Source: Haloarcula hispanica ATCC 33960
Lineage (GTDB): Archaea; Halobacteriota; Halobacteria; Halobacteriales; Haloarculaceae
Assembly: GCF_000223905.1 (NCBI RefSeq)
Contig: NC_015948.1
Coordinates: forward strand, 744,001 to 808,000
Reading direction: 5' to 3'
DNA: 64,000 nt
This document shows positions 37,030-51,681 of the stretch, piece after piece. Both the position numbers and the translations under genes were made by a program. Within the stretch, counting starts at the first letter, position 1. Every line of letters begins with the position of its first letter. The notes below the pieces were generated by a model. That model had not been told where the DNA came from. It worked only from the letters and a program-made list of their open reading frames with translations, and ran no database searches.

Positions 37030-37398
37030 CGCGGACTCCGATGTGACCCCTCCGGTGTCGTCGTCGCCTCACAGTGCGGGTTCGACGTGACTGGGACTTG
37101 GTCATCAGCTATTTACTGCAGAGCCCCGTGTAAGCGTACAAGAACAGCGGACCTGAACGTCTCCCGATGACCGATTTCAGCCACGGTCACTGTGGGAGGT
37201 CCCCGTTCACAGCCGACTACTCGACCATCATGACACTGCTGCAGAACACCACTGGCGGCACTCGTCCCGCGCCGTTTGCAGTTGTCCTGCGACCGGACCT
37301 GTCCCGAGACAGTTCCCAGAGCCATATCACTCCGACTGCTCTTGAGCAGGGAACGATATCTATCCCGGCGCAATGGCCAGACTCGAACGGGATACCGA
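37030..37398. other. 369-base intergenic region before the LOV kinase
   Basis: Short frames of 70-100 codons exist on both strands, but their products lack haloarchaeal composition and have no family look; one would overlap the kinase start. The region holds a TATA-like GCTATTTACTG near 37109 and an AT-rich tract. It probably contains the kinase promoter and a leader, but the position of the start of transcription is not clear. Confidence 0.5.
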
Positions 37399-39579
37399 AT
37401 GACGTCTGAGACCGCTGTCAACGGGGACGACAGGGTTCAGGTCCTCTACGTCGGCACCGATTCGGACGACGCCGAAACGCTGTCGACGGCGCTCGAACGC
37501 GAGAACGGCCGTTTCACGGTCGAAACGGTGCGCACTGCTCCCGAGGCTGTGGCGAGGCTGGCTGACGATACCGTAGACTGTCTCGTCTCCGACTACGACC
37601 TGCCCGAACGGAACGGTGTCGAGCTTCTGGAAACGGTCCGTGACGAGCATCCGGCCCTCCCGTTTATTATCTACACTGCCCGGGGGAGCGAGGCGGTCGC
37701 CAGCGAGGCGATTTCGGCCGGTGTCACGGACTACCTCAGGAAAGAGCCGGGCACCGAACAGCATGTGGAGTTGACGAACCGAATCTTTGACGCCGTCGAG
37801 CATCACCGCTCACAGCAGGCGACCACCGAGCGGAACCGAGCGCTCCGGAGCTACGAGCGGATGGTCAACTCCATGCAGGAGGCAGCCTGTATTTACGATG
37901 CGGAGGGGCGGTTCGAAATCGTCAACGAGACCATAGCAGAGTGGTACGACACGACGCGCGCTGCGCTCGAAGGACAGACCAGTAGACTCGTTCCGCGTAT
38001 TCGAACCGAGGGTGAGAGAGACCGCTACCAGGAACTGCTCGACGGAACGCGGGAGCAGCTTAGCGGCGAAATCGAAGCGGAGTTCCCCGGCCACGGACAC
38101 GCGGTGGTCGCGTACCAGCTAACGCCGCTGGTCGTCGATGGTGTTATCGACGGCATCGTCGGCGTCGCTCGGGACGTCACCGACCGGAAAGAGCGCGAAC
38201 AGAAGCTACTCCGGAACAAACGCGCGATAGACGAGGCCCCGGTCGGTGTCGTTATCACCGACCCTGGCCAGACGGACAATCCGCTGATCTACGCCAACGA
38301 CCACTACCGCGACCTGACTGGCTATTCGCTTCCGGAGTTACTCGGGAAGAACTGCCGAATGCTACAGGGCGAGAACACCGATCCGGAGTCCGTCGCTACA
38401 ATGCGGGACGCGATTGACGCAGAGGAGCGGGTGACGGTCGAACTCAGGAACTACCGGAAGAACGGGACCGAGTTCTGGAACAGGGTTCGGATCGCGCCGG
38501 TTCGCGATGACGACGGGGCAGTCGTCAACTATGTCGGGTTCCAGCAGGACATCACGGAGCGGAAACGACGCGAGAAACGGTTAGAGGAAACGTCGTCGCG
38601 GCTGGAAGCCCTCTTCGAGAACTCACCGGACATGATCGACGTGCTCGACGCCGATGGGACGATCCGCGACGTGAACCAGCGGTTCTGTGCGGAACTGGGG
38701 TACGACGAGAGCGAGGTGCTCGGGCGGTCGATCTGGGAGTTCGACCTGACGTTCGACGCCGAGGACGTGCAGACACAGCTTTCGGGGTTCAGTGTCAACG
38801 AGCGCCGCAAGTTCGAGGGCCTGTACGAACGCCGCGACGGGTCGACGATGCCGGTCGAAGTACATCTGCTCCGACTCAGCCTCGACGGCGAGGACCGGTT
38901 CCTGGCGATCAGCCGTGATCTCACGGAGCGCAAGGAGCGCGAGCAGGAACTCGAACAGCAAAACGAACAGCTCGAACAGTTCGCCAGCGTCGTCAGTCAC
39001 GACCTCCGGAACCCGTTGACTGTCGCCCGCGGACGCCTCGAACTATTGCGTGAGGAGTCCGATAGCGAGCACATCGACGCTATCGACGGCGCACACCAGC
39101 GAATGGATACGCTCATCGACGACCTGCTCACGCTCGCACGCGACGGTACGTCACCCGCGTCGCCCGTCGTAGTTGACCTCGAACCGTTCGTCCAGACGTG
39201 CTGGCAAAACGTCGACACGAAAGCCGCGACGCTCCGCACTGACATAGACCGGCCCATCCGCGCCGACGAGAGCCGCCTCAGACAACTGTTCGAGAATCTC
39301 GTCCGCAACGCGGTTGAGCACGGCGGTGACGGCGTGACTGTGACCGTGGGCGAACTGGCCGACGGCTTCTACGTCGCGGACGACGGTCCCGGTATCCCTG
39401 TGGCCGACCGCGGGGACGTGTTCGATGCCGGCTACTCGACGGCGGTCGAAGGGACCGGCTTCGGCCTGAGCATCGTGAAACAGGTCGCTGACGCCCACAG
39501 CTGGGCGGTCCGCGTCGGCAGCGGCAGCGACGGCGGAGCCCGGTTTGAGTTCACCGACGTCGACACTGTCTCTGAGTAG
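37399..39579 (+). CDS. Hybrid sensor histidine kinase with receiver, PAS and LOV domains
   Basis: 726 residues, no membrane helix. Order: receiver-like domain (about 12-125, Asp65 in SDYDLP and Lys115), PAS (about 150-265), a LOV-type PAS (about 275-390), PAS (about 395-520), HisKA with His534 in VVSHDLRNPL, then the ATPase domain (ENLVRNAVEHGG, DDGPGIP, GTGFGLSIVKQ). The LOV segment has GKNCRMLQG with Cys319, NYRKNG, FWN and the late FQQD glutamine, the FMN-binding and photoadduct set. It should be a soluble blue-light-responsive kinase. The start MTSETAVNG follows 41 rejected codons. It stands 67 bases before mvk. Confidence 0.93.
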   Translation: MTSETAVNGDDRVQVLYVGTDSDDAETLSTALERENGRFTVETVRTAPEAVARLADDTVDCLVSDYDLPERNGVELLETVRDEHPALPFIIYTARGSEAVASEAISAGVTDYLRKEPGTEQHVELTNRIFDAVEHHRSQQATTERNRALRSYERMVNSMQEAACIYDAEGRFEIVNETIAEWYDTTRAALEGQTSRLVPRIRTEGERDRYQELLDGTREQLSGEIEAEFPGHGHAVVAYQLTPLVVDGVIDGIVGVARDVTDRKEREQKLLRNKRAIDEAPVGVVITDPGQTDNPLIYANDHYRDLTGYSLPELLGKNCRMLQGENTDPESVATMRDAIDAEERVTVELRNYRKNGTEFWNRVRIAPVRDDDGAVVNYVGFQQDITERKRREKRLEETSSRLEALFENSPDMIDVLDADGTIRDVNQRFCAELGYDESEVLGRSIWEFDLTFDAEDVQTQLSGFSVNERRKFEGLYERRDGSTMPVEVHLLRLSLDGEDRFLAISRDLTERKEREQELEQQNEQLEQFASVVSHDLRNPLTVARGRLELLREESDSEHIDAIDGAHQRMDTLIDDLLTLARDGTSPASPVVVDLEPFVQTCWQNVDTKAATLRTDIDRPIRADESRLRQLFENLVRNAVEHGGDGVTVTVGELADGFYVADDGPGIPVADRGDVFDAGYSTAVEGTGFGLSIVKQVADAHSWAVRVGSGSDGGARFEFTDVDTVSE

Positions 39580-39646: not shown

Positions 39647-40630
39647 ATGGTCACGTCGAGCGCTCCCGGGAAGGTGTACCTGTTCGGGGAGCACGCGGTC
39701 GTCTACGGTGAGCCGGCGGTGCCCTGCGCCATCGAGCGGCGAGTGCATGTGACGGCAACCGAGATCGACGAGGGGTTGCGAATCCACGCGAACGACTTGC
39801 AACTGGACGGCTTTACCGTCGAGTACACCGGCGACGGGGAGAGCCATCCGGACGTGGACGTCGCCGAATCGCTCGTCGAAGCCGGCATGGGGTACGTCAA
39901 CGAGGCAGTGGCACAGGCCCGTGACGCGGCCGACGCGCCGGAAGCGGGCTTCGAGATATCTGTCGAGGGCGACATCCCGCTCGGGGCGGGGCTGGGGTCG
40001 TCTGCCGCGCTCGTCGTCGCGGCGATAGACGCGGCGACCCGGGAACTCGGCGTCGAACTGCCGGCGAGCGAAATCGCCGACCGCGCCTATCAGGTCGAAC
40101 ACGAGGTACAGGACGGGCAGGCCTCGCGGGCGGACACGTTCTGCTCGGCGATGGGCGGGGCGGTCCGCGTGGAGGGCAACGACTGCCGGCGGCTGGACGG
40201 CATCGACACCCTCCCCTTCGTCATCGGCTACGACGGCGGGGCCGGCGACACCGGCGCACTGGTCGCCGGCGTCCGGACCCTCCGCGATGAATACGACTTC
40301 GCTGCCGACACCGTCGCGGCAATCGGCGATATCGTCCGCGAGGGCGAAGCGGTGCTGGAAACGGGCGATTACGAGCGGCTCGGGGAACTGATGGACTTCA
40401 ACCACGGACTGCTCTCGGCGCTGGGCGTCTCCTCGCGGTCGCTGGACTCGATGGTGTGGGCGGCCCGCGACGCCGACGCACATGGCGCGAAACTCACCGG
40501 AGCCGGTGGCGGTGGCTGTATCGTCGCGCTGGACGAGACGGACGACGCGCTCACGGCGCTGAAGTACACGCCGGGGTGTGAGGACGTCTTCCGGGCCGAA
40601 CTGGACACCGACGGGGTCCGGCAGGAATGA
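39647..40630 (+). CDS. mvk: Mevalonate kinase
   Basis: 327 residues of the GHMP kinase family. It phosphorylates mevalonate for isoprenoid and archaeal lipid synthesis. PGKVYLFGEHAVVYGEPA begins the protein, the ATP loop is PLGAGLGSSAALVVA near residues 108-122, and the C-terminal GAKLTGAGGGGCIVAL is the third GHMP motif. It starts a compact isoprenoid cluster and overlaps ipk by four bases. Confidence 0.97.
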   Translation: MVTSSAPGKVYLFGEHAVVYGEPAVPCAIERRVHVTATEIDEGLRIHANDLQLDGFTVEYTGDGESHPDVDVAESLVEAGMGYVNEAVAQARDAADAPEAGFEISVEGDIPLGAGLGSSAALVVAAIDAATRELGVELPASEIADRAYQVEHEVQDGQASRADTFCSAMGGAVRVEGNDCRRLDGIDTLPFVIGYDGGAGDTGALVAGVRTLRDEYDFAADTVAAIGDIVREGEAVLETGDYERLGELMDFNHGLLSALGVSSRSLDSMVWAARDADAHGAKLTGAGGGGCIVALDETDDALTALKYTPGCEDVFRAELDTDGVRQE

Positions 40631-41382: not shown

Positions 41383-41552
41383 GACTGCTACTACTGTCGT
41401 CGACTGGCCCGTCCCAGAAAGCGATTTAGTCCATAGTGTGCCCAGGCTGGCTGATGCAGGGTATCTCTGCCCAGGTCTGGCAGACTGGTAGCTTAAATAT
41501 CACTTCTTCGGCTGTCGTAACATATTTGTCCTCTGTTATCAATTATGCGACT

Positions 41553-43037
41553 ATGTCTGCAGTAGGTCTGACCGACGTCTATCGATACGGAACGAGGTTT
41601 CTCGGGACATTGCTTGTCGTCGCCGGCGTCGGTGGCGGCCTCATCGCTGCAGGGTACGTGCTGATACAGAACGGCTCTCTCGACTCGTTCTCGGGGACGC
41701 AAGGCTATCGCGCGGTACTCGGCGTCGTTGTCGGTGCGCTCGGTGGGCTCCTGTTGCTCTCCGGCCTGCTCGGCCTGAGCCACAAGCTCATCGCCGACGC
41801 GACGATGGCGGGCACGCTCGCGGCCCAGACAGCACAGCGTGGTGCGAGCGATGTGGCAGCCGCCAGTCCTCCAGCGAGCGACCAGGCAGCAACTGAAACT
41901 GCCGATGATAGCGCCGCAGCGGCGACCGAATCGGCCACGGAATCGGAAGAACCGACGCCGGAGCCGGTCGGGACTGAACCGGCGGTTTCTCAGGAGACGG
42001 AACCGGCCGCCGACTCAGCGGCTGTCGAGCCGGCAACGGCCGAACCCGAGGTATCGGAGCCGGTCGCTGACTCCGAGCCGGACGCGGACTCGTCCGGAGA
42101 CTCGGAGATCCATGCGTCCGCACAGGAACCCTCCGACCCATCCGACGGGACAGTGGCGTCCGCTACGTCCGACGCTTCGGCGGCCGGGACTGATGACGCA
42201 CCGGCGACGGCAGCCGACGAAGATCCGCTGGCGGATGCTGACCCGGCGACAGCTGATGACCCGGTGGCAGGCGATGTCCCAGTGACAGACAAGGACCTTC
42301 TGGACACCGACGACACTTCAGAACCACCGTCGACCGACGACACGATGGCCGCGGCGACGGACGGAGACGCAGTGGAGACGGCCCAGAACGAACAGCTATC
42401 GAACCAACAGCCGGCGGAAAACGTTGCTGGACCGGAATCCGAAGCAGTGGACGACACTACTGCGGAGCCATCCCCGACGAATCTCGCCGGTGAGCCGGAA
42501 ACGATGGAACCCCAGTCCGAAGCCAGCGAGCAGTCGGACCGCGACCTGCTCGCTGAGGACGCCGCCGAGGAACCAGAATCGAGCACGGAACCACAGGAGT
42601 GGACTCCGCCGGACCCCGCGGAGTTCGACACGCAGAGCGAGGAACCCGCTGCGGCTGACGACTGGGGAGCGGACGAACCAGCACCAGCCGACGACTGGGA
42701 AACCGAACCTGAAGCCGACACCGAACCCACTGCTGTCGGCTCACCAGATGCCGCCGAGGCGGACCAGCACGACGCCGTAACCGAGGACACCCGACTACTT
42801 GACGAATCCGGTAGGCCAGACACGTCCAGTGGCCCGCGGACGACGGACGACCTGTTCGGTGGTGCTGACGATGACTCACCCGAGGCCGAGGATGACGAGA
42901 GCGTGCAGAGCGAGGCGGAGTCTCAGGACGCGGACGCGACTGACGACGAGGACGCAACGCTCGCGGACGACGGTGTCACTGGTTTCGACGTCTCCAGTGA
43001 CGACGACCCGCTCTCGGACCCCTTAGACGACGAGTAG
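41553..43037 (+). CDS. Membrane-anchored acidic low-complexity protein
   Basis: 494 residues. Two membrane helices (about 15-38 and 52-77) are followed by roughly 410 residues of Glu/Asp/Ala/Pro/Ser/Thr-rich, probably disordered sequence. The tail repeats short motifs: KDLLDTDD, RDLLAEDA, TRLLDES and DDLFGGAD, and the Trp motifs QEWTPP, DDWGAD and DDWETE. No enzyme domain is visible. It sits between ipk and the RNase J gene; a scaffold role is only suggested. The ATG giving MSAVGLTDVY was chosen over an upstream GTG because it begins just before the first helix. Confidence 0.8.
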   Translation: MSAVGLTDVYRYGTRFLGTLLVVAGVGGGLIAAGYVLIQNGSLDSFSGTQGYRAVLGVVVGALGGLLLLSGLLGLSHKLIADATMAGTLAAQTAQRGASDVAAASPPASDQAATETADDSAAAATESATESEEPTPEPVGTEPAVSQETEPAADSAAVEPATAEPEVSEPVADSEPDADSSGDSEIHASAQEPSDPSDGTVASATSDASAAGTDDAPATAADEDPLADADPATADDPVAGDVPVTDKDLLDTDDTSEPPSTDDTMAAATDGDAVETAQNEQLSNQQPAENVAGPESEAVDDTTAEPSPTNLAGEPETMEPQSEASEQSDRDLLAEDAAEEPESSTEPQEWTPPDPAEFDTQSEEPAAADDWGADEPAPADDWETEPEADTEPTAVGSPDAAEADQHDAVTEDTRLLDESGRPDTSSGPRTTDDLFGGADDDSPEAEDDESVQSEAESQDADATDDEDATLADDGVTGFDVSSDDDPLSDPLDDE

Positions 43038-49239: not shown

Positions 49240-51681
49240 TCACGACGACTCTGCGGTCGGTTCTTCGCCCTGTGTCTCGATCTCGACGCCGCTGAACTCG
49301 AACTGGGCGCCGCCGTCCTCGCTGTCGGTAATTTTCAGTTCCCAGCCGTGGGCCTCGGCAATCGTCTCGACTATCGACAGGCCGAACCCGGTGCCGTCAT
49401 CGTTCGTACTGTAGCCCGATTCGAGAACGGCGTCGCGCTGGTCCGGCGGAATCCCCGGGCCGTCGTCGGCGACGTAGAAGCCGTCCGGCGTGGCTCCGAG
49501 CGTTATGGTGACCGCCCCTGCCCCGTCGGCCGCTGGCCCGGATTCGGGAGTAGCACCGTCTCTGCCGTGTTCCACAGCGTTTCGTACGAGGTTCTGGAAC
49601 AGTTCGACGAGACGGTCGGGGTCGGCCAGTACGCGCTCCGGCGGGTCCCGAATCCGGCGCTCGGCCGCGCTCGTTGGCGCGGCGTCCCACGCTCGAGCGA
49701 ACGTGTCTCGGAGCGACACCGGTTCGGGGTCGCCGATGTCACGCCCCTCGCGGGCCAGCGTCAGGGTGTGGTCGATGAGCGTCTCCATCCGATTGAGGGC
49801 GTCCGTTGCGGCCGTTATCGACTCGCGTACGTCCGCCGAAGCGTCCTGTGACGCCAGTTCCAGATGGCCGCTGGCGACCTGCAAGGGGTTCCGGAGGTCG
49901 TGGCTGACGAGGCTGGCGAACTCGTCCAGCCGCTCGTTCTGGAGTTGGAGTTGTCGCTCCCGCCGCTTCTGGTCGGTGATGTCCGTGATGACGGAGACGC
50001 TACCGACCACAGAACCACTGAGGCCGCGAATCGGGGCGGCGGCAAGACTCACGTCGACACGGCTCCCGTCTTTTCGCTGGAGTTCCGTTTCGTGGCCCGC
50101 CAGACGCTCGCCCTCGAGTACCTGCGCGTGAAGTTCGGCGGTCTGCCGTCGGTTCTCGGCCGGGATGACGGGGACTGTTTCGCCCAGAACCTCGTCGGCA
50201 GACCAGCCGAACAGCTCTGTCGCGGCGGGGTTCCAGACTTCGACGACCCCGTCGGTGTCCGTCGCAATAATCGCAAGCGGGGCAGCCTCGACGAGCGTCT
50301 CCAGACGCTCGGTCGTCACTGCGAGTTCGGACTCGATTTCCTTTCGCTGTGAGATGTCACGGACGATGCCGACTCGGCCGGACTCACCGCTGGCCAGTTC
50401 GATGTCCGCCGCATCGACTTCACAGGGGACCTGTTCGCCGGACGCGGTCCGGATCAGGAACTCTCCCGGCTCGTCGTCCATCGGTTCGGTTTCCATCTGT
50501 CCCAGCACCGTCTCGAAGCGTTCGCCGACGAGACTGTCCTCGACGGTACCGACCAGTTCGGCGAACGGGTCGTTGTACGTGACGAACCGGTCGTGCTCGT
50601 CGAGGACGTAGACGGGTTCGCTGACGCCCTCGAAAATCGTCTTGTACTGCGCCAGCCGCTGTTCGCGCTGTTTCCGCTCCGTGACATCCCGGAGGACGAC
50701 GAGCCGGCCAACGAGTCCATCGAACCGGTCGGTAAACGGTGACACTTCTAGTTCGACGAACCGCTGCTGGCCGTCCACGGAGAGCGCGAGTTCCGACCAG
50801 TCTGACTGTCCGTCGTCGTCGACCGTGACTTTGTCCCAGGTCGGGATGACGGCGTCTACTTGCTGGCCCACGAGCGTTTCCTCGGGGCCAGCGAGGAGGG
50901 TCTCGGCCGCTGGGTTCGCGTGGCTGATACAACCGTCGACGTCCAGAACGAGCGTTCCATCGCCCATCTGCTCGACGATGGTCTCCTGGGCGGCTGGCAC
51001 CGGGTCGAGTGTCTTGAACGTGTAGAGCCCGGTCGTCATCGCTATCCCGGAGACCCCCCAGGCGAAAATCGTGGCGTCTTCGGGTATCTGTAGGAAGTAC
51101 TGCTGGGTCAGCGCAATGGTCCAGGGAGCCAGCGCCGCGACGAGGACGGCAGCGGCCTGTGTTCGGTACAGGTGTCGCGAGCGGACGAACAACTGAACGA
51201 GAACGATTGTCCCGGCGAGCGCCGCAATCAGAATCGTCGCCATGTGGGCGACGAACACCGCTGTGAGGCCGGTCCCGGGCGTCACCACCAGCGACCCCAC
51301 GGAGCCGCTGGGCGGGAGGTCGAACAGCGATACGCCCGGAAAGACGAACACGGCCATCAGCATCAGTAGATCAAGCGACAGTAGCCCGACGGCCCGGCGC
51401 GTCACCGCCCGGTCGAAGTCGGCGTACTGCAACGCGGCGTGCAGCCAGGAGATGGCGACTGCACCCTGCGCGATGGTCGCGACCTGTCGGGCGAGCAACT
51501 GGGTCGACAGCGTCGTCGCGGTGATGTCGACGGCGTAGCTGGCAGCACCGACTGACAGAGCGAGGTGAAACACCACCATCGGCGTCCCGCCAGGGTCCTC
51601 CCGCTTGCGCCACGCGAGCAGTGAAAACACCGCGGAAAGGCCCGTCAGGACCCACAGGGCCGTCACGAAGCGGCCGTACAT
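49240..51681 (-). CDS. Membrane PAS sensor histidine kinase
   Basis: 813 residues. About seven membrane helices (1-220) of the histidine-kinase N-terminal 7TM type are followed by three PAS domains (about 225-335, 345-455 and 460-570), HisKA with His594 in LVSHDLRNPL, and an ATPase domain with ENLVRNAVEHG, DDGPGIP and GTGFGLSIVET. The first PAS has no LOV cysteine motif. No receiver domain is present, so a separate response regulator is expected; none is adjacent. It converges on gltX with 8 bases between. Confidence 0.93.
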   Translation of the reverse strand: MYGRFVTALWVLTGLSAVFSLLAWRKREDPGGTPMVVFHLALSVGAASYAVDITATTLSTQLLARQVATIAQGAVAISWLHAALQYADFDRAVTRRAVGLLSLDLLMLMAVFVFPGVSLFDLPPSGSVGSLVVTPGTGLTAVFVAHMATILIAALAGTIVLVQLFVRSRHLYRTQAAAVLVAALAPWTIALTQQYFLQIPEDATIFAWGVSGIAMTTGLYTFKTLDPVPAAQETIVEQMGDGTLVLDVDGCISHANPAAETLLAGPEETLVGQQVDAVIPTWDKVTVDDDGQSDWSELALSVDGQQRFVELEVSPFTDRFDGLVGRLVVLRDVTERKQREQRLAQYKTIFEGVSEPVYVLDEHDRFVTYNDPFAELVGTVEDSLVGERFETVLGQMETEPMDDEPGEFLIRTASGEQVPCEVDAADIELASGESGRVGIVRDISQRKEIESELAVTTERLETLVEAAPLAIIATDTDGVVEVWNPAATELFGWSADEVLGETVPVIPAENRRQTAELHAQVLEGERLAGHETELQRKDGSRVDVSLAAAPIRGLSGSVVGSVSVITDITDQKRRERQLQLQNERLDEFASLVSHDLRNPLQVASGHLELASQDASADVRESITAATDALNRMETLIDHTLTLAREGRDIGDPEPVSLRDTFARAWDAAPTSAAERRIRDPPERVLADPDRLVELFQNLVRNAVEHGRDGATPESGPAADGAGAVTITLGATPDGFYVADDGPGIPPDQRDAVLESGYSTNDDGTGFGLSIVETIAEAHGWELKITDSEDGGAQFEFSGVEIETQGEEPTAESS

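Follow-up and report, generated by a model that had tools for sequence, protein, structure and literature searches.

Organisation of the locus

The window analysed here, the whole stretch of DNA under study, comprises 64 kb of the Haloarcula hispanica ATCC 33960 genome. It contains a stop-free open reading frame of 726 aa, which encodes a predicted histidine kinase with a LOV domain and lies 67 bp upstream of the mevalonate kinase gene on the same strand. The following features were assigned, with their basis in brackets:

37106..37118, + strand: CAGCTATTTACTG, probable TATA promoter element of the kinase gene (identical in 10/10 orthologous leaders)
37399..39579, + strand: LOV histidine kinase gene, 726 aa (translation, Pfam, same-site orthologues with 81-96% identity)
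37435..37788, + strand: N-terminal pseudo-receiver, aa 13-130 (Pfam Response_reg, active-site table, alignment, definition from PMC12632262)
37837..38193, + strand: PAS domain 1, aa 147-265, without the LOV cysteine (Pfam, alignment)
38221..38574, + strand: LOV domain, aa 275-392 (YtvA alignment, AlphaFold model, structure comparison)
38353..38355, + strand: codon of Cys319, predicted photo-adduct cysteine (aligns with YtvA C62)
38596..38943, + strand: PAS domain 3, aa 400-515 (Pfam; lowest dN/dS in the protein)
38971..39144, + strand: HisKA dimerisation and phospho-acceptor domain, aa 525-582 (Pfam HisKA)
38998..39000, + strand: codon of His534, predicted autophosphorylation site in SHDLRNP (sequence)
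39265..39555, + strand: HATPase_c domain, aa 623-719, with N box NLVRNAVEH, G1 box DDGPGIP and G2 box GTGFGLS (Pfam, translation)
39647..40630, + strand: mevalonate kinase, a neighbour in a genus-wide operon and not part of the sensor (GHMP kinase domains)

Orthologues of the kinase were found at the same site in ten genomes including H. hispanica. The other nine match it along the full length, orthologues share the start of the protein (MTSE/MTPE) in the alignment, and the LOV domain is 98% identical to that of H. amylolytica. Pfam searches located Response_reg (aa 16-120), PAS (156-267), PAS_9/PAS (282-387, corresponding to the LOV domain), PAS_4 (406-513), HisKA (525-582) and HATPase_c (623-719), the last two above the Pfam cut-off, and the H, N, G1 and G2 boxes are all present. 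No transmembrane segment was detected in the protein (19-residue hydropathy maximum 1.5), and 146 acidic residues stand against 81 basic ones; both the acidic excess and the missing membrane anchor fit the expectation for a cytoplasmic haloarchaeal protein. The order receiver-PAS-LOV-PAS-kinase without a membrane anchor, as read in the first-pass annotation, is confirmed by these data. Two NCBIfam equivalogs for blue-light proteins were considered and rejected, since the kinase scored below their curated cut-offs (BluLightHisKinLov: 165.7 against 450 bits; YtvA_fam: 185.1 against 250 bits); the best stretch in these matches was the LOV part. A full-length AlphaFold model had low inter-domain confidence (pTM 0.33) and was set aside for the arrangement of the domains.

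The dN/dS ratio of the whole gene is 0.18, with 0.15 for the LOV domain, 0.09 for PAS domain 3, 0.13 for the kinase part and a median of 0.30 for the receiver. As judged from these ratios, the LOV and kinase parts remain under purifying selection.

The putative promoter element CAGCTATTTACTG precedes the start codon by about 0.28 kb. Farther down, most of the ten leaders carry a TGACCG/CGGTCA inverted repeat. An RNA structure in the 369-base leader received no support from covariation (covariation term +0.51). Elsewhere in the window, a second histidine kinase is encoded on the reverse strand (49240-51681), with a HisKA_7TM membrane region, PAS domains, HisKA and HATPase.

The LOV domain and its flavin pocket

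Alignment of the LOV sequence with Bacillus subtilis YtvA gave an E-value of 1e-34 and 59 identical residues out of 119 (~50%). YtvA, aureochromes, Brucella LOV-HK and oat LOV2 were the best relatives of solved structure by sequence. T287, N294, N318, C319, R320, L322, Q323, R336, N351, N361 and Q382 correspond to YtvA T30, N37, N61, C62, R63, L65, Q66, R79, N94, N104 and Q123, respectively, and include the polar FMN-contact residues N318, R320, Q323, R336, N351, N361 and Q382. The residues named in the first-pass annotation, C319 in GKNCRMLQG, N351 in NYRKNG, N361 in FWN and Q382 in GFQQD, are all there and were called correctly.

The structure prediction which that annotation had proposed as a check returned a LOV fold: the AlphaFold2 model of the domain reached a pLDDT of 95.7, displays the PAS/LOV fold with A'alpha and Jalpha helices, and superposed on Meiothermus LOV (9vf7) with an rmsd of 0.8 Å over 127 residues (Z 22.9), followed by Brucella LOV-HK (Z 22.5). 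The top matches among solved structures were all LOV domains, YF1 included. With such values for both sequence and model, the match is not due to chance.

The adduct cysteine is kept in 10/10 orthologues. Both asparagines and the glutamine are invariant across 60 aligned haloarchaeal LOV domains; these were preselected for the NC motif, so that invariance of the cysteine among them is by choice. Two departures from the usual pocket were seen. The motif reads GxNCRMLQ and not GxNCRFLQ, with Met321 in place of Phe (orthologues have Ile or Val here), and Tyr378, two residues ahead of Gly380 of the last strand, stands for the usual Phe. For archaeal LOV domains, the Diamante paper (PMC12202551) records Tyr or Trp at a pocket position of this kind. 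Both departures may change kinetics or fluorescence. Judged by sequence and fold the LOV domain appears complete, and homology, including that to one haloarchaeal LOV domain that has been measured, suggests that it binds FMN and undergoes a photocycle. The initial description of a soluble histidine kinase with a complete LOV domain was thus borne out by sequence, predicted structure and conservation.

The N-terminal domain is a putative pseudo-receiver

The receiver of the H. hispanica kinase has G19-T20 where a DD pair is expected, and retains D65, T93 and K115. It therefore lacks part of the five-residue set of a phosphorylatable receiver (DD, D, T, K). In the active-site table the acidic, Mg-binding pair is replaced by G-T or G-I in all ten sequences at the locus, and two orthologues (G013 and G010) additionally carry D65E and K115R, so that the phospho-acceptor Asp is lost. 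Among the receivers of other LOV kinases, outside the clade, DD or ED, D, T and K are kept in 59 entries and not in 6. By the definition in PMC12632262 the active-site residues make the domain a pseudo-receiver. The earlier label 'receiver-like' stands as far as family membership is concerned (Pfam Response_reg) and fails if a phosphorylatable receiver is meant.

With a degenerate active site, phosphorelay input via this domain is unlikely. The domain may still dock, and D21, beside the lost acidic pair, might partly replace it. The pseudo-receiver could also be kept as an N-terminal docking or gating element that answers a further regulator; the kinase would then integrate light with a protein partner and need no phosphorelay. 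We regard this as a doubtful proposal.

Distribution and relatives of the kinase

LOV-profile matches at E 1e-30 or better were found in 347 of 391 Halobacteria genomes and 82 of 86 genera, a census that counts profile matches; the cysteine motif was sought in the 109 loci that were read, and was missing from the chosen ORF at 6 of these. REC-PAS-LOV-PAS-HK was the commonest architecture among the 109 loci (38), followed by REC-PAS-LOV-HK (14) and REC-PAS-LOV-GAF-HK (10), with domain labels assigned by phmmer with Haloarcula segments, which left some distant PAS, GAF and kinase domains unlabelled. This gene and its orthologues account for fourteen of the 38 entries, some of them entered from two collections; the rest belong to Halorubrum, Haloferax, Halobacterium and Natrinema, among others. 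A 2014 review (Losi et al., PMC4844311) already gave a list of 167 archaeal LOV proteins, with kinases assembled from RR, GAF and PAS units. The present protein combines LOV, such units and a kinase output in a member of the Halobacteria and falls within that scheme. The domain order, called unusual in the first-pass annotation, is therefore common among related haloarchaeal LOV loci, and an unusual architecture was rejected.

The H. hispanica kinase shares class, domain vocabulary, LOV consensus and soluble kinase output with the haloarchaeal RR/PAS/GAF-LOV kinases of PMC4844311, but the receiver of its clade lacks the acidic pair, and a location next to mevalonate kinase is a peculiarity of a single Haloarcula clade. 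According to PMC12202551, ALovD-1, a Halonotius LOV domain purified in 2025, binds FMN, shows a 446 to 390 nm photocycle with slow recovery and is functional at 3 M KCl; its parent kinase (WP_120100563, a full-length homologue of 726 aa) likewise has LOV as the second of three PAS domains, and its motif is GxNCRYLQ as against GKNCRMLQ in H. hispanica. Brucella abortus LOV-HK (PDB: 6PH4, 6PPS) is likewise a soluble LOV-PAS-kinase (LOV model Z about 22), but has no N-terminal receiver or extra PAS domain, and its LOV identity is 37-38%. B. subtilis YtvA and YF1 (PDB: 2MWG, 2PR5, 4GCZ) provide the closest solved LOV domain by sequence, at about 50%; YF1 joins such a LOV domain to a HisKA kinase but is engineered, and the output of YtvA is a STAS domain.

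Sequence searches of the H. hispanica genome, on which all genome-wide statements here are based, found just one further close LOV kinase that is intact. This paralogue (G000:C3:1423210; loci L002 and L055) has the order REC-PAS-LOV-GAF-HK and a LOV domain with 69% identity; it differs by a GAF domain in place of PAS domain 3 and by an intact receiver (DD, D, T, K). The GAF domain at the position of PAS domain 3 represents a domain swap within the genus, and the kinase cores of the two proteins form sister groups (SH-aLRT 91). A frame-broken LOV-like fragment with Leu for the adduct Cys lies on the 406 kb replicon (L003, G000:C2:29444-29766) and was left out of the LOV count.

Insertion and loss of the kinase gene

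Nearly all of the 30 genus members that were compared share one gene order: rpsB, two small membrane proteins, a P450, mevalonate kinase (mvk), ipk, a variable acidic protein and RNase J. The order is rearranged in G014, and other inserts between P450 and mvk occur in some members. In the window, RNase J is followed by a polyprenyl synthase. Mevalonate kinase itself was found in 32/32 genus genomes. The acidic protein between ipk and RNase J (41436-43037, 533 aa) is Ala-rich, has no Pfam match and is conserved in position, with a very variable sequence (55-89% within the clade).

Insertion of the kinase between P450 and mvk is confined to one clade of 14 Haloarcula species, ten of which have the LOV kinase, one a LOV-less kinase (G017) and three an empty site (G025, G035, G036). 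The empty sites (L056, L057, L058) keep 39-52 bases of the 3' end of the kinase gene, in frame and followed by its 3' spacer; these scars read RFEFSDVSSVSQ, ARFEFSDIGTASE and GGIRLDFADVDTVSA. More distant genus members are mostly alignable only from about 40 bases ahead of mvk. The in-frame scars imply that the ancestor of these species had the kinase gene and that deletion followed, so that we rejected the idea that the empty sites never contained it. Deletion probably occurred at least twice. Read from these alignments, the kinase is a clade-specific insertion between P450 and mevalonate kinase, and its place there is recent. The G017 kinase at the same site (L049, 8060-10255) combines an intact receiver with ordinary PAS domains where the others have LOV. 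By its kinase core it groups as sister to the site's LOV kinases, whereas G017 as a species branches within the clade that carries them.

Proposed function and alternatives

In our firm though not final judgement, the Haloarcula gene encodes a histidine kinase that is soluble, homodimeric and regulated by blue light; its identity as a blue-light histidine kinase is very likely. In the proposed mechanism, FMN in the LOV domain would be excited by blue light (about 446 nm) and form a covalent adduct with Cys319, after which Gln382 in the Ibeta strand would switch its hydrogen bonds. The signal would pass from LOV via its C-terminal helix to the third PAS domain. An invariant coiled-coil linker of 27 residues would carry it on to the HisKA helix and so change either the autophosphorylation of His534 or the phosphatase activity directed at one or more response regulators encoded elsewhere. 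The N-terminal receiver would take no part as a phospho-switch and probably has a structural role or a role in docking. In this scheme we infer that the protein dimerises and acts as a kinase, and likewise its partner and the sign of the response. No response regulator gene was recognised adjoining the kinase, and a search of the two-component literature yielded no partner.

The spacing of the domains bears on this scheme. The LOV DIT motif and the kinase His are 150 residues apart in 40 relatives, and the last PAS domain and the His 27 residues in 39 relatives; in 15 proteins with LOV directly before the kinase the distance to the His is also 27. Sensor modules thus appear exchangeable on one fixed linker. 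YF1 signals through a continuous coiled coil, and a fixed linker in the haloarchaeal LOV kinases fits signalling of this kind.

The same domain might photocycle and nevertheless report mainly the redox or oxygen state through flavin reduction, with light as a secondary signal. Flavin-binding redox PAS proteins are known, e.g. NifL, and the several PAS domains within one kinase hint at mixed inputs. LOV proteins can also signal via flavin radical states without the Cys (PMC4682037). Against this, the adduct Cys is not needed for redox sensing but is kept in every orthologue, as it is in the 60 aligned haloarchaeal domains (a set filtered for the NC motif), and we consider a redox sensor improbable. 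The degenerate receiver active site in 10/10 orthologues and the loss of the gene from three sister species could likewise point to a gene that is decaying, with LOV and kinase already non-functional. A frame that is intact in ten species, intact catalytic motifs and the dN/dS values (0.18 for the gene, 0.09-0.15 for LOV, PAS domain 3 and kinase) make such decay scarcely credible.

A role in controlling the adjoining mevalonate and isoprenoid genes, and hence carotenoid pigment, had seemed tempting in the first-pass annotation, with mevalonate kinase directly downstream on the same strand and the LOV kinase at this spot in ten species. The mevalonate operon is the housekeeping route to all archaeal lipids. 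It occurs genus-wide without the kinase, and deletion of the kinase with scars in three clade members, with a LOV-less form in a fourth, is not as expected of a required regulator of mevalonate genes. Moreover, distances of 1.2 and 1.7 Mb separate the kinase from two crtB-like genes. At a recent site that was lost in sister species the isoprenoid neighbourhood is no evidence for pigment control, and we rejected the link, which now seems very improbable, on this insertion and deletion history and the distance of the phytoene-synthase-type genes. One of these phytoene synthase family genes lies 0.3 kb from a 526-aa HTH_10 (Bat-type) regulator (G000:C3:2483037-2484291), and this regulator is a better candidate for pigment control than the LOV kinase.

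Significance

The 2014 survey stated that no archaeal LOV protein had been investigated for its cellular role (PMC4844311); the literature found reports none since, and the 2025 work, as far as its accessible part goes, concerns photophysics (PMC12202551). The blue-light kinase described here is itself an ordinary protein of a known haloarchaeal type. What is new is local, namely the pseudo-receiver and the series of present, LOV-less and deleted forms at one site. H. hispanica ATCC 33960 is genetically tractable. Since its genome yielded a single further intact LOV kinase of close kinship and related species have lost the gene naturally, a clean genetic test of what blue light does in a haloarchaeon would be possible. 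The LOV, LOV-less and deleted alleles of the sister species form a natural series with which the purpose of the light input could be tested.
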